DNA of 32,060 nt from Paludibacteraceae bacterium. GTDB lineage: Bacteria; Bacteroidota; Bacteroidia; Bacteroidales; Paludibacteraceae. Within the stretch, counting starts at the first letter, position 1, and the number at the start of each line of letters is the position of its first letter. Below, in pieces: positions 4,409 to 8,600 of this stretch. The stretch lies in NCBI GenBank assembly GCA_017649925.1, contig JAGCFX010000086.1, forward strand, positions 1-32,060, given 5' to 3'. The notes beneath the pieces are model-generated. The model was given only the letters and a program-made list of their open reading frames with translations. It was not told the DNA's origin and did not search any database. The translations under genes and the position numbers were made by a program.

Positions 4409-7342
4409 TTACTTTACCAGCGCGCCTTGCGCATTATAAGTCTTCTCCCCGCGGATTATATACATTTGTCCATCGCGGAGCACCTTCAGCCCCCTTCCTT
4501 TCAGGGAAGGGTCGGGGTTAGGCTCCTCAACGCCAGTGGCAGTGCCGGTGGTGGTGAACTCGCTGCTATAGGATGCCAATACGGCATCTTGGTCGTCTTT
4601 GGCTTGGAGCGTAAGGGCGTAATGCGTTGCGCTGTTCAGACCCGTTACTGTGAACTGCAAACCGTTAGCGGTCATTTTCGCTGCCGGTGCATGGCGGTTG
4701 CCGTTCTTGCCCGGCGCAAAAGCAATGCCTGTCAACTGGCCGTTGCCGTTGAAGATCAGGGTGCAGAAAACAACTCCGTCTTTGGTTATCTCAATCGTAT
4801 AAGTAGCTGCATTCTCCGAAGTCGGCCAGGTAACTGTTGCTGCATTGTCTTGGGGTTCAACTTTCACATCATTGTTCAGCACAGTGGCTTCCTCGGCGCC
4901 GATGGCGTACGTGTAATAGAAATCTCGCCAAACGGCGGCAGCCTTGTACATATCAATCGAACTCGGCAGAACATACAGTTTGCATTCAAACTTATCCACT
5001 CCGTCAAAAGCCGTGCTGTACGCATTAGTCGGCGTTTGGCGGTAGTTGAAGATCGTTTCGAGGTTCTCGCAGTTATAGAACGCGTTGTTATAAATGGTCT
5101 TCACGGACTCGCCGATGATTACTTTCTTCAATGTGCTGATACCTGCAAAAGCGTTTTCGCCGATGGCGGTGACGGAGTTACCGATAACCAGTTCCTCCAT
5201 TTCGCCCGGTGCTTCTACGCCAAACTGCATATTCTCCGTGAACTCGCCGGCATTGCCGACAGTCAGCACTTTGTTAGCCGGATCGTACGACCAAACGAGT
5301 GCGAAGTCTTTTCCGCAAGTACCTACGCGGTCATACGCAAACTCTGCCGTAAAGGTGGTGTCTTGGGTTATCTGCGCAATACGCGGATTGTCTTTCAGTC
5401 CATCCGACCATTGTGTGAAATGGTAACCGTAGTTCGGAACGGCTGTCAATTCGTCGAAGTCCAGATATTCCACTTGTGCGTTGCCGTATATATATCCTTG
5501 TGTTGAATTGGTTTCTGTAGATATAGTATATACATTCTTCGCAAAAGTAGCGGTATAGGTCTTGTCTTCCGTAACAGAAACTGTACGTGGATTAGAAGTG
5601 TTATTGTCATTCCATTTTACAAAATGATATCCGTAATTAGCTGTTGCTGAAATTTCCACTTCGTCAAGATACAATGCCGATTTACCGCCTACCGTTGTTC
5701 CCCATTCGGGATTAGCGGAAGTGGTAGAAATGCTATAGGTGTTTTTCGCAAACTCTGCCGTGAAGGTGGTGTCCTGAGTTATCTGCGCAATACGCGGATT
5801 ATCGGTATTGCCATCACTCCATTGAGCGAAATGATAACCGTAGTCGGATGAAACAGAAAGTGTTACTTCGTCCAAGTATTCCGCAGAACTATTGCCGGAG
5901 ATAGAGCCGTGCTCTGCATTCGTGGTGATGGAATACATATTTTTCGCAAAAGTAGCAGTAAAGGTTGTATCTTGGGTTAATGGAAATATATACCGCGGAT
6001 TATCCTTACTGCCGTCAGACCATTGAGAGAACTGATATCCATAATTCGGAATCGTGTGTAATTTTGCAGCACTATTGAATATCATACTCGCTTCTCCAAT
6101 AGTTGCGCTTGCATTATTACTAGGGCGAATAATGGCAATTTCATCGAATTCTGGATTCCAATCATTACTGCCGCCTTCGCGGTATAGATATAGAGAGGAT
6201 AAAGTATCAACTGATGCCGGAAGTTCTATTATAAGGTTTCCTGTGATGCCTGTCGCATTTTCCGGATATGTATAAAACAATTTGTCAGAATTAGGAGCCT
6301 CATATAATTGGCAACTTCCTGATATATCCGCCGCTTTTGTAATGTGGACGACAAATAGATCTCCTTCGTGCAATGTGCCGGCAGCAAATTGTATTCCAAA
6401 ATAATTATTTCTATTTAGTTTTGTTTTCCCTTGTGATATATTTGTGGAAATACTTCCGGAAACAGAACCTATTACTGCCCTTTCGATTGTAGTTGCTTTC
6501 AATAACATAGTTCCGCCGTTTTCTATGGATACGTTTCCTCTTTCTGGAGAATCAGCGGCTCCGAAAATGGTATATTCGTTTGTATTATGTTCAAACTCTG
6601 CAGTAAAGGTTGTGTCTTGGTATAAATTAAAAGTACGCGGATTGTTGGTATTTCCATCTGACCACTGTGTAAAATTATAACCGTAGTTCGGAACGGCAGT
6701 AATCAACGTATCATCGCATATTGTTGGAACGACAACACTGCCCATCATCATTTCATTTACAAGCCCTGTAACAACAAAACCCAACGGCCCATATTTTATC
6801 TGAGAAGCATAATTAGACCATGCTGTCTTATATGCATCTAATGTTCCGCAAGGAACATGAATTGGACAATTATTTGTATAATTATTAAAGGCATTAGTAC
6901 CCAATGCTGGTGGCGTTTCTGCCTCAATCGTTACATAGGTCAAACCGCTGCAACTTTGGAAAGCCGAACTTCCAATGCTTGTAACGCTATTGGGAATCGT
7001 CACAGAGGTCAAACTACTGCAATTAAGGAAAGCCTTCACTCCAATGCTTGTAACACTATTGCCAATCGTCACTGAGGTCAAACCGCTGCAATCACGGAAA
7101 GCATAATCTCCAATGCTTGTGATGGCATATGTTACCGCATTATATACCACTGAAGCAGGAATAACTACGGAACCAGAATACTCTAAGTAAGTAGAATACG
7201 AACTCCCGCGATAAGTAACTGAAGCAGTTTTAGTGCTGGTATCAAAATCATACCAAATACCATCGACTTGAGTGTCGGAAGCAAACATCGTTCCCACGCT
7301 TGCTGCTACAGCGAGCAATAGGGTAAAAATTTTTGTTTTCAT
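4409..7342 (-). CDS. Secreted leucine-rich-repeat / InlB-like-repeat surface protein with T9SS-type tail
   Basis: I start it at the ATG at 7342, giving [22 protein letters not shown], a clean signal peptide; in-frame ATGs upstream would spoil it and run into the preceding gene. Domain order (977 residues): a BspA/LRR_5 block with IGDYAF, IGVKAF and IGSSAF repeats (about 70-150); five InlB/Listeria-Bacteroides-type units with the signature YGYxFxQWSDGxxxNPR and QDTTFTAEF (about 200-690), with a ~130-residue beta-rich segment between units 1 and 2; a second LRR_5 block with VTAIGENAF and VKTIYNNAF; a fibronectin III-like domain; and a tail [20 protein letters not shown] resembling short sorting tails on Bacteroidales exported proteins. 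It is probably a cell-surface or secreted adhesin; the ligand is unknown. The linker before the tail ([10 protein letters not shown]) is encoded by a palindromic repeat. The stop is followed by a terminator at 4288-4315. Confidence 0.88.
4490..4520. repeat. Palindromic CCCTTCC / GGGAAGGG repeat inside the surface-protein gene
   Basis: The plus strand reads CCCTTCC-TTTCA-GGGAAGGG. In the gene it encodes the linker PDPSLKGRG immediately before the C-terminal tail. The same sequence read in other frames gives the PPSFQGR-type peptides that recur where such palindromes invade genes, which suggests a dispersed repeat rather than protein-derived sequence. Exact limits are approximate. Confidence 0.55.
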
Positions 7343-7346
7343 TGTT

Positions 7347-8177
7347 TTAAAATATTTTTTCATTATCAATTTTCTCAACATATATTCCAATTTTGAGGCC
7401 GGAGTTCATCACTGCGTTAATTATTGTTCTCCATGTTTTATCCAACTTACTTGTTGTCGTCAATGGCTCATTTGCAAATGTTTTGCCATACCAACTGTTC
7501 TTCGCCTTCCTTCCGAACATAGTATATACATCGAGTACTGGTTTCTTGAATTTCAGGGAGATAATTGCATCTGCACCCTCCTCATTACACGCAGGAATAC
7601 ATGGAACAAAACTATAGTACTTTGTATCTTTATTATACATAATTCCATCATAAAAGCAATCTGGAATTTTAGGAGATAATGGATCTATAGAGGCCAATCT
7701 GTATTGATCATGAGTTGGAACTAGTCCACATGGAACGGGTTTATTTACAACTATGATAGTATCAAACTCAAATTTAGAGTCCGATATAAAATGTCCAAAT
7801 ACGATTATGTCACCATGCTGATACTTTTGTCTTTTGATTTCACAACATATATTGCGAAAACATCCATATACATACGGGTCTGTATCTAAGGCGCCCATAG
7901 GCATAGAAGGTAGGTTCTTTACCGGTTTTATGTCATAATGAACACCCTTAGGCTTTGTTTTGCTAATATATGTTGATTGTGAATATGGTTCATATTCTCC
8001 CCAAAAGTACAAAAGACAAGATTTTTGAATGCCGTTGTCTAAATAGATACCGTCACGTTTGATGAATTTTCTCTTATGTTTTGTTGTGTTCCATGGATGT
8101 TGATTAATGCTTCCTAACGTCCTTTTCCGGTACCCTGGTTCATTAATAGGATGATTACAAAAAAATAATCTTGCCAT
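7347..8177 (-). CDS. Hypothetical protein, AT-rich orphan
   Basis: The 276-residue soluble-looking protein has no signal peptide or membrane segment, and I do not recognise it. Features visible in order: a basic, aromatic N-terminus ([16 protein letters not shown]), [13 protein letters not shown] near residue 60, [15 protein letters not shown] near residue 100, [21 protein letters not shown], and a C-terminal half with several Lys and Trp. The WGE.EP ... DTDP.V.G ... FG....F..DT..VV pattern reminds me of an uncharacterised family, but I cannot name it. One sampled line is about 32% GC against about 45-48% in neighbouring genes, which suggests recent acquisition. The stop lies 4 bases before the surface-protein ATG. 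No TAnnTTTG promoter lies directly upstream; the nearest is that of the putative RNA at 8265-8563, so readthrough from it is possible. Confidence 0.75.
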
Positions 8178-8264
8178 AAATTCAAGTTGTTAAGTTTTAG
8201 CCTACTCTTTATTGGATTTTCGGCATTCTCCGTTATATATTATAGTTCGCACATACACATACAT

Positions 8265-8302
8265 AAAAAAGCGCAGACTTCGCTATTGCTCATCTACGCG
8301 CT
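8265..8302 (-). terminator. Terminator-like hairpin ending the putative RNA
   Basis: On the minus strand AGCGC(GU)AGA pairs with UCUGCGCU, closing an imperfect inner stem, followed by six T residues at 8270-8265. The 5' arm includes GCGTAGAT, which can alternatively pair with the RNA's 5' end. It sits 88 bases before the orphan gene's ATG. Confidence 0.6.
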
Positions 8303-8563
8303 AGGACCCTCGAACTGTCCCTCTAGTCAAATAAACAACAATGAAACCTACGCCGATATGACAAACTGCCTGCTGTAGAACGGCAGGCAAGTATATAAGT
8401 CATACCCGTAGGCATCTATCGTTACTTTGTCTCTGACTAGATTTTACTTGTGAAAAGTGTTCGAGGCTTTTCGCGCGTCAACAACAAAGCGTCAATAAAC
8501 GCCTTCCAATATGTTAAAATCCACACCCCTCAGAAGAGACACATCCCTTCGGCGTAGATTTTC
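8265..8563 (-). ncRNA. Putative ~300-nt structured RNA or leader with alternative helices
   Basis: A strong promoter (8569-8600) points into a non-coding stretch that ends in a hairpin plus T6 (8265-8302). Helices I can draw: long-range AAUCUACGCCGA (8560-8549) with UCGGCGUAGGUU (8356-8345), 12 pairs with one G-U; GAAAAG/CUUUUC hairpin (8452-8472); GCGU/ACGC hairpin (8489-8502); perfect UGCCUGC/GCAGGCA hairpin (8367-8389); and CUA+GGAC/GUCC+UAG hairpin (8301-8324) with a UUCGA-containing loop. The 5' segment AUCUACGC can alternatively pair with GCGUAGAU (8299-8292), which lies in the terminator's 5' arm. I looked for and did not find tmRNA (tag, CCA end), RNase P, SRP, TPP or cobalamin signatures. 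It could be a free small RNA (for example a 6S-like or Bacteroidales-specific RNA class) or a switch-like leader for the gene at 8177. Folded by eye only. Confidence 0.5.
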
Positions 8564-8568
8564 GGGTG

Positions 8569-8600
8569 CAAAGGTACAAATAATTTTTGAATTGTGCAAA
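8569..8600 (-). promoter_or_regulatory. Bacteroidota promoter of the putative RNA
   Basis: The minus strand has TTTGC at 8600-8596, 19 bases, then TACCTTTG at 8576-8569. It is a near-perfect -33/-7 match with an expected start near 8563. It diverges from the plus-strand promoter 25 bases away. Confidence 0.85.

Follow-up and report, generated by a model that had tools for sequence, protein, structure and literature searches.

A multi-copy family of Bacteroidales leader RNAs whose fold is predicted to oppose an intrinsic terminator

The leader locus

The window is the whole 32,060-nucleotide stretch of contig JAGCFX010000086.1 from a Paludibacteraceae bacterium (assembly GCA_017649925.1) that was analyzed here. 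On its minus strand, a promoter, a leader RNA ending in an intrinsic terminator, and a DUF805b element precede a gene (Table 1) whose product had no Pfam, PADLOC, or NCBIfam match. A large BspA-type leucine-rich-repeat and InlB-repeat protein is encoded directly after this first gene (4409-7390, minus strand) and is possibly on the same transcript. The initial annotation, made from the letters of the window, had described a non-coding stretch with a promoter before it and a hairpin plus T6 at its end, and both signals were found, at 8600-8569 and 8299-8265, respectively. It had also remarked that the following co-directional gene has no visible promoter of its own; no TAnnTTTG occurs from the terminator to the ATG.

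The segment 8567-8265 had a folding energy of -116.3 kcal/mol compared with -81.2 ± 4.9 kcal/mol for 100 dinucleotide-preserving shuffles, none of which was as low (z = -7.1). The terminator hairpin by itself had an energy of -13.4 kcal/mol. A generic terminator scan returned no sites; its rule accepts loops of 3–8 nt, and the loop of this terminator is larger. Comparison with Rfam had been proposed as a check, and no known RNA family matched the leader: cmscan with Rfam 15 at the gathering score placed no family over it in the window, and the matches overlapping it at E ≤ 10 were far under the gathering scores of their families. At the same gathering score, no family lay over the RNA in 20 loci of the genus, 20 of the order, 14 further loci, L272, or L273.

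Table 1. Features of the leader locus in the window, with partner strands and sequences
Feature	Span	Strand	Elements	Remarks
Promoter	8569..8600	minus	TTTG 8600-8597, 20 nt, TACCTTTG 8576-8569	Bacteroidetes-type
Whole leader RNA	8265..8566	minus		About 300 nt; 5' end placed by the promoter
P0, local 5' hairpin	8516..8562	minus	AAAATCTACGCC 8562-8551 with GGTGTGGATTTT 8527-8516	Minimum-energy fold
Alternative 12-bp helix	8345..8560	minus	8560-8549 with 8356-8345	Sequence and variable-position association
Conserved single-stranded or hairpin block		minus	ACATATTG 8514-8507, GCGTTTATTGACGC 8502-8489	Near-invariant columns of A1
P1, closing helix	8296..8478	minus	ACGCGC 8478-8473 with GCGCGT 8301-8296	3' strand shares 8299-8296 with terminator arm
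P2 hairpin		minus	GAAAAG 8472-8467 with CTTTTC 8457-8452	Kissing strand CCTCGAAC 8466-8459 in loop
P3 helix	8323..8440	minus	CTAGTCA 8440-8434 with TGACTAG 8329-8323	Covariation
Central domain P4	8343..8429	minus	8429-8399 with 8362-8343	Apical hairpin 8387-8369
P5 hairpin		minus	GGAC 8320-8317 with GTCC 8307-8304	Loop GTTCGAGG 8315-8308 kisses P2 loop
Pseudoknot	8286..8338	minus	TTGTTTAT 8338-8331 with ATGAGCAA 8293-8286	Latter strand in terminator loop
Intrinsic terminator	8265..8299	minus	GCGTAGA 8299-8293, TCTGCGC 8277-8271, T6 8270-8265	
DUF805b element (RF02914)	8199..8233	minus		40.2 bits (gathering 35.6); between terminator and gene
Downstream gene	7347..8177	minus		276 aa

Conserved fold and its overlap with the terminator

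Fifty homologous copies were aligned with MAFFT (alignment A1). RNAalifold predicted 65 pairs on A1, 24 of which had at least one both-sided change. For the structure made up of P1, P2, the kissing helix, P3, P4, and P5, 94.7% of cells were paired and both-sided changes were present in 26 of 50 pairs; the covariation score was 0.387 compared with 0.172 ± 0.006 for shuffles and 0.058–0.088 when the structure was slid along the alignment. Both sides changed in all eight alignment pairs of P1 and all six of P3. Eleven of the 18 P4 pairs were invariant, in part because the A1 copies were selected by anchors in that region. A ranking of column pairs made without a structure placed all of its ten best in P1, P2, P3, or the kissing helix, and 29 of its best 60 were mostly canonical against a background of 24%, with noise lower in the list. 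Covariation analysis had been called for at the outset, and compensatory changes were found to keep the folds in the 50 copies; on this comparative evidence, the predicted leader structure in the window is confirmed as real and beyond chance. The three interior hairpins seen in the initial annotation are all conserved parts of it, with 8472-8452 corresponding to P2, 8320-8304, which has UUCGA in its loop, to P5, and the 8389-8367 region to the apical hairpin of the core.

The same anatomy was recovered further afield. When 48 wider relatives were fitted to covariance model R1, which was built from 34 copies, all from the genus of the window (alignment A4; the fit favors the structure of that model), 95.8% of cells were paired and 32 of 41 pairs had both-sided changes, including all 14 pairs of P1 and the kissing helix. 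Stems of at least 3 bp flanking the kissing loops were present for P2 in 47 of 48 relatives and for P5 in 48 of 48. Stems of at least 4 bp were counted in 41 relatives for P2, compared with a mean of 27.2 (maximum 34) when strands were swapped, and in 39 for P5, a modest excess over the swapped mean of 31.3 (maximum 37). Thirteen of 14 short forms also had the kissing-loop hairpins despite differing kissing sequences; L252 failed. Because the flanking stems are present in both sets, the kissing helix is taken to join two hairpin loops. The pseudoknot duplex had an energy of -11.4 kcal/mol with its own strands compared with -7.95 ± 0.40 kcal/mol with swapped strands in the 48 relatives, 44 of which reached the complementarity cut. 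Comparison of the copies shows the predicted leader fold to be a junction closed by a variable P1, in which P2 and P5 flank a central domain and are joined by kissing loops of 6–7 bp; a pseudoknot completes it.

To compare the fold with the terminator, each of the 50 copies was folded over the 60 nt preceding its T-run, with the last base asked to pair. The predicted folds, with a mean energy of -20.4 kcal/mol, contained a hairpin that reached the T-run with its 5' arm in the P1 and/or kissing columns in 48 copies; L010 and L030 failed this strict test. Two terminator layouts were found on different bases: that of the window, GCGTAGA...TCTGCGC, and GCGAAGGCCTC...GAGGTCTGCGC. Because the terminator 5' arm overlaps the P1 3' strand and/or the kissing strand in the 48 copies, the fold and the terminator should be mutually exclusive. 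The early description of a structured RNA with mutually exclusive helices, the terminator among them, was right in kind. The antiterminator it proposed, in which the 5' strand forms 8 bp with 8299-8292, is complementary in the window and rare elsewhere: both exact motifs occurred together in only 2 of 123 copies (exact motifs counted; 9 of 132 copies lacked the anchor and were left out), and it was rejected as a conserved feature. Judged from the alignments, the conserved competitor of the terminator is P1 (8478-8473 with 8301-8296).

The 5' strand has two candidate partners. For the local hairpin P0, complementarity in 82 copies from the genus was 6.87 with own strands compared with 6.46 ± 0.08 with swapped strands; for the alternative 12-bp helix, the values were 7.50 and 7.34 ± 0.03, which support it weakly. 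This 12-bp helix had been named in the initial annotation as one side of the switch, and that claim stood in part. It is present in the window sequence and covaries across copies, but the complementarity is absent in L040 and L041, which keep the local 5' hairpin. Both strands were readable in 110 of 130 copies, the other 20 being without a readable 5' motif. Strands of the CTACGCCG type occurred 57 times with core CGGCGTAGG and once with core A, and strands of the CTACGCTG type occurred 35 times with core A and 17 times with G, as predicted by pairing in the 12-bp helix; kinship among the copies inflates these counts. Because the 12-bp helix crosses P1 and the kissing helix, it would fit the terminated state.

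Family distribution and genomic context

At E ≤ 1, a DNA search of 101 genomes, the window's own and 100 relatives, gave matches in 85; the strong ones belonged to the window's genus, where a genome often had several, and matches in other families were weak. Of 178 genomes of the genus, 85 contained the exact pattern. When named genome contigs were scanned by pattern, at least 118 stretches were found; among the matches listed, nearly all were Paludibacteraceae or Bacteroidales assemblies, many labelled as ruminant or other herbivore gut, and other labels were Bacteroidia from pig, Paludibacter sp., Candidatus Colicola equi, and one Holosporaceae. Most of the weak 28-nt matches belonged to a variant subfamily that differs in sequence but shares the topology: of 20 such stretches, 15 combined a GCGTTT-type block with a comparable RNA, or with the 5' part of one, and the block was absent from four.

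With R1, 60 of 61 genomes of the genus had matches at E ≤ 0.01, 566 in total (median 8 per genome, range 0–28; at most 34 candidates scored per genome). The window's own genome had 14 credible copies at E < 1e-4, of which nine were weaker and mostly of 172–194 nt. In Bacteroidales, with at most seven candidates scored per genome, matches at E ≤ 0.001 were found in 67 of 295 genomes (61 of 244 good ones) from 40 of 183 genera; two of the 67 genomes belong to the window's genus, its own genome being one of them, and the two or three weakest matches (E 5e-4 to 3e-7) are doubtful. The class sample gave 7 of 198 genomes, two of them within Bacteroidales, and the phylum sample 4 of 198, one of them the window's own. 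Among the class- and phylum-level matches, L263, L264, and L270 have the anatomy and look real; L265, L266, L267, L269, and L271 looked spurious by anatomy and were rejected as members. R1 E-values near 1e-4 are unsafe because class and phylum matches at that level look spurious; calibration of the model was short. As judged from these searches, the leader belongs to a multi-copy family of predicted cis-acting leader RNAs of Bacteroidales, about 160–300 nt long.

A search with L222 found an identical copy on two plasmids, one from Phocaeicola dorei and one from P. vulgatus. No annotated feature lies over it, and in P. dorei an annotated gene begins 66 nt after the match. The plasmid search with L227 gave no match, nor did searches of phage records with L227 and with the Phocaeicola copy. 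In viral contigs, the genus pattern gave no match and the two order-level patterns gave 1 and 0. One IMG/VR contig with a copy is L272 (IMGVR_UViG_3300021319_000137), in which, by eye, the RNA lies upstream of a frame (after 640) with a GHVGHGKTTL GTP-binding motif, elongation factor Tu-like.

The first ORF after the RNA was on the same strand for 94 of 132 distinct copies and on the opposite strand for 8, at a median distance of 91.5 nt; the remaining 30 were too short or had no ORF and were left unjudged. A full promoter was found upstream of 110 of 129 copies and none upstream of the other 19. Between terminator and ATG, over 75 intervals each at most 200 nt long, there was no full promoter and a single -7 element (two in shuffles). 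By a crude hydrophobicity rule for export, 50 of 72 downstream products of at least 150 aa were signal-peptide-like compared with 67 of 273 among the remaining ORFs at these loci (Fisher p = 5e-12). The downstream proteins were diverse, with 54 Pfam families over 91 proteins, the commonest in seven; the best 25 of the 54 include LRR_5 (7 of 91), LRR_8 (4), CsgG (4), WG repeat (3), and Flg_new_2 (3). No dominant family linking the targets by pathway was seen among the 91, and PADLOC gave single-member matches only among the best 25 of 37 families listed, with no link to defense.

The order of leader RNA, DUF805b element, and gene recurs at other loci, with DUF805b near the copy in 6 of 20 loci of the genus and 3 of 14 further loci; a simple pattern found a DUF805b-like motif 3' of 16 of 127 copies. 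In L170 (G051:C37:115700-117700, about 890-1240), the 5' domain and GCGTTTATTGACGCTTG are followed by a different sequence and then by a DUF805b-like motif, suggesting that this 5' module may be combined with RNAs of other kinds. A repeated element, cactgggctcaacagtgtaaaaaagtgag, lies upstream of the RNA match in L253, L254, L255, L258, L259, and L250, with a relative, CGCTGGCACCGACAGCGTTAAAAAGCGGTG, in L175; in the repeated-element copies of this genus, a promoter was often not seen adjoining the RNA. An element like TTGCGCCCGACACGAATTAGGG precedes start codons in L182, L185, L193, L240, and L255 and was found in 1 of 127 of the strict copy set.

Interpretation and comparison with known RNAs

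We consider the leader to belong to a Bacteroidales terminator-leader family unlisted in Rfam 15, with a fold that opposes the terminator in the manner of an ON-type riboswitch and is stabilized by a ligand, and assign this reading a probability of roughly 0.6. It would probably represent a widespread class of riboswitch-like terminator leaders whose genes are switched on when the RNA is folded. Polymerase would start at the promoter of the leader; if the kissing-loop junction folds and P1 is held closed, the terminator would be blocked and the gene transcribed, and if the junction stays unfolded, transcription would end at the T-run. Pairing of the 5' strand with the core 3' strand in the 12-bp helix would break the core and favor termination. 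Most likely, the fold would be stabilized by a ligand, as in ON-type riboswitches. The RNA forms a conserved, structured domain 5' of a gene and, in the predicted folds of 48 of 50 copies, a structure that excludes the terminator. The targets are without a shared pathway, unlike those of most riboswitches, and this counts against the riboswitch reading; pathway-linked targets are usual for riboswitches without being strictly defining.

The diverse targets and many paralogues point to a general signal, to a protein, or to several ligands acting via different central domains. A wider and tentative proposal is that the copies may form a new superfamily of kissing-loop riboswitches in which the P1-P2-P5 frame stays constant and the central sensor is exchangeable; one genome would then carry twelve or more paralogous switches, possibly responding to different signals, that determine which surface and secreted proteins gut Bacteroidales produce. 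Alternatively, the same terminator switch could be controlled by a protein, a ribosome, or an antitermination factor in place of a small molecule. Such a general factor would suit 54 Pfam families among 91 proteins and a median of eight copies per genome, but the near-invariant central core would suit a small ligand equally, and we regard this version as rather unlikely.

Less probable still is that the copies are stand-alone trans-acting RNAs, with the terminator as a mere 3' end and the next gene incidental. Copies do have their own promoter and terminator, and multi-copy sRNA families exist in Bacteroides, such as the 65–70-nt FopS RNAs (PMC11697453); against this stand the orientation of the first ORFs (94 co-directional, 8 opposite), the lack of a promoter before the gene in all 75 intervals, and the mutual exclusion of fold and terminator. 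That a mobile or selfish element landed before genes by chance is very improbable: the copies are many, one is on two Phocaeicola plasmids and one in an IMG/VR contig, but the three patterns gave 0, 1, and 0 matches in viral contigs and phages gave none, the copies are mostly 70–85% alike and so not recent, and their orientation and gene spacing are conserved. A leader-peptide attenuator was rejected as the least credible. An ATG is recurrent in the core (in 119 copies), but the frame it opens runs for a median of 22 codons and stops ahead of the terminator in 110 of the 119; the enclosing hairpin also varies in length modulo 3 (60/31/28), and, judged on this ATG, there is no conserved short reading frame.

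As a leader RNA in 40 of 183 sampled genera, with eight matches in the median genome of one genus, often before exported proteins, and not in Rfam 15, the family would be an abundant, unassigned cis-regulatory RNA. Bacteroidales are major gut bacteria, and to our knowledge few RNA switches are known from them. With its competing helices named and covarying, the switch lends itself to direct testing. The cultured human-gut isolate P. dorei CL06T03C03 has a copy on its plasmid pBdorCL06T03-4, with the leader at about 53931-54182 of NZ_CP072250.1.

No description of the leader RNA was found in searches of open-licence PMC literature (including PMC7366714 and PMC10994844), a large 2017 catalogue of bacterial RNA motifs being covered only as far as it is included in Rfam. 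In crcB (fluoride) and pfl, predicted terminators overlap the conserved structure, so a stabilized fold should raise expression (PMC2864571). The leader resembles these ON-type riboswitches in the overlap of its terminator with the conserved structure; it differs in its fold, larger size, greater number of copies, lack of a shared target pathway, and lack of an Rfam match. FopS sRNAs of Bacteroides thetaiotaomicron are a trans-acting family with sigma-ABfr-type promoters (PMC11697453). Like FopS, the leader is a multi-copy noncoding RNA family of Bacteroidales with promoters of this type, but at about 160–300 nt it differs in length and in being a leader. DUF805b RNA is a 35-nt element after the terminator in the same leader, and the leader RNA itself has no RF02914 match. 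Purine and lysine riboswitches combine a closing helix P1 with a loop-loop contact. The leader likewise has a closing P1 and kissing hairpin loops; unlike those riboswitches, it has no Rfam match, its kissing helix is 6–7 bp long, and a large central domain lies between the two hairpins.
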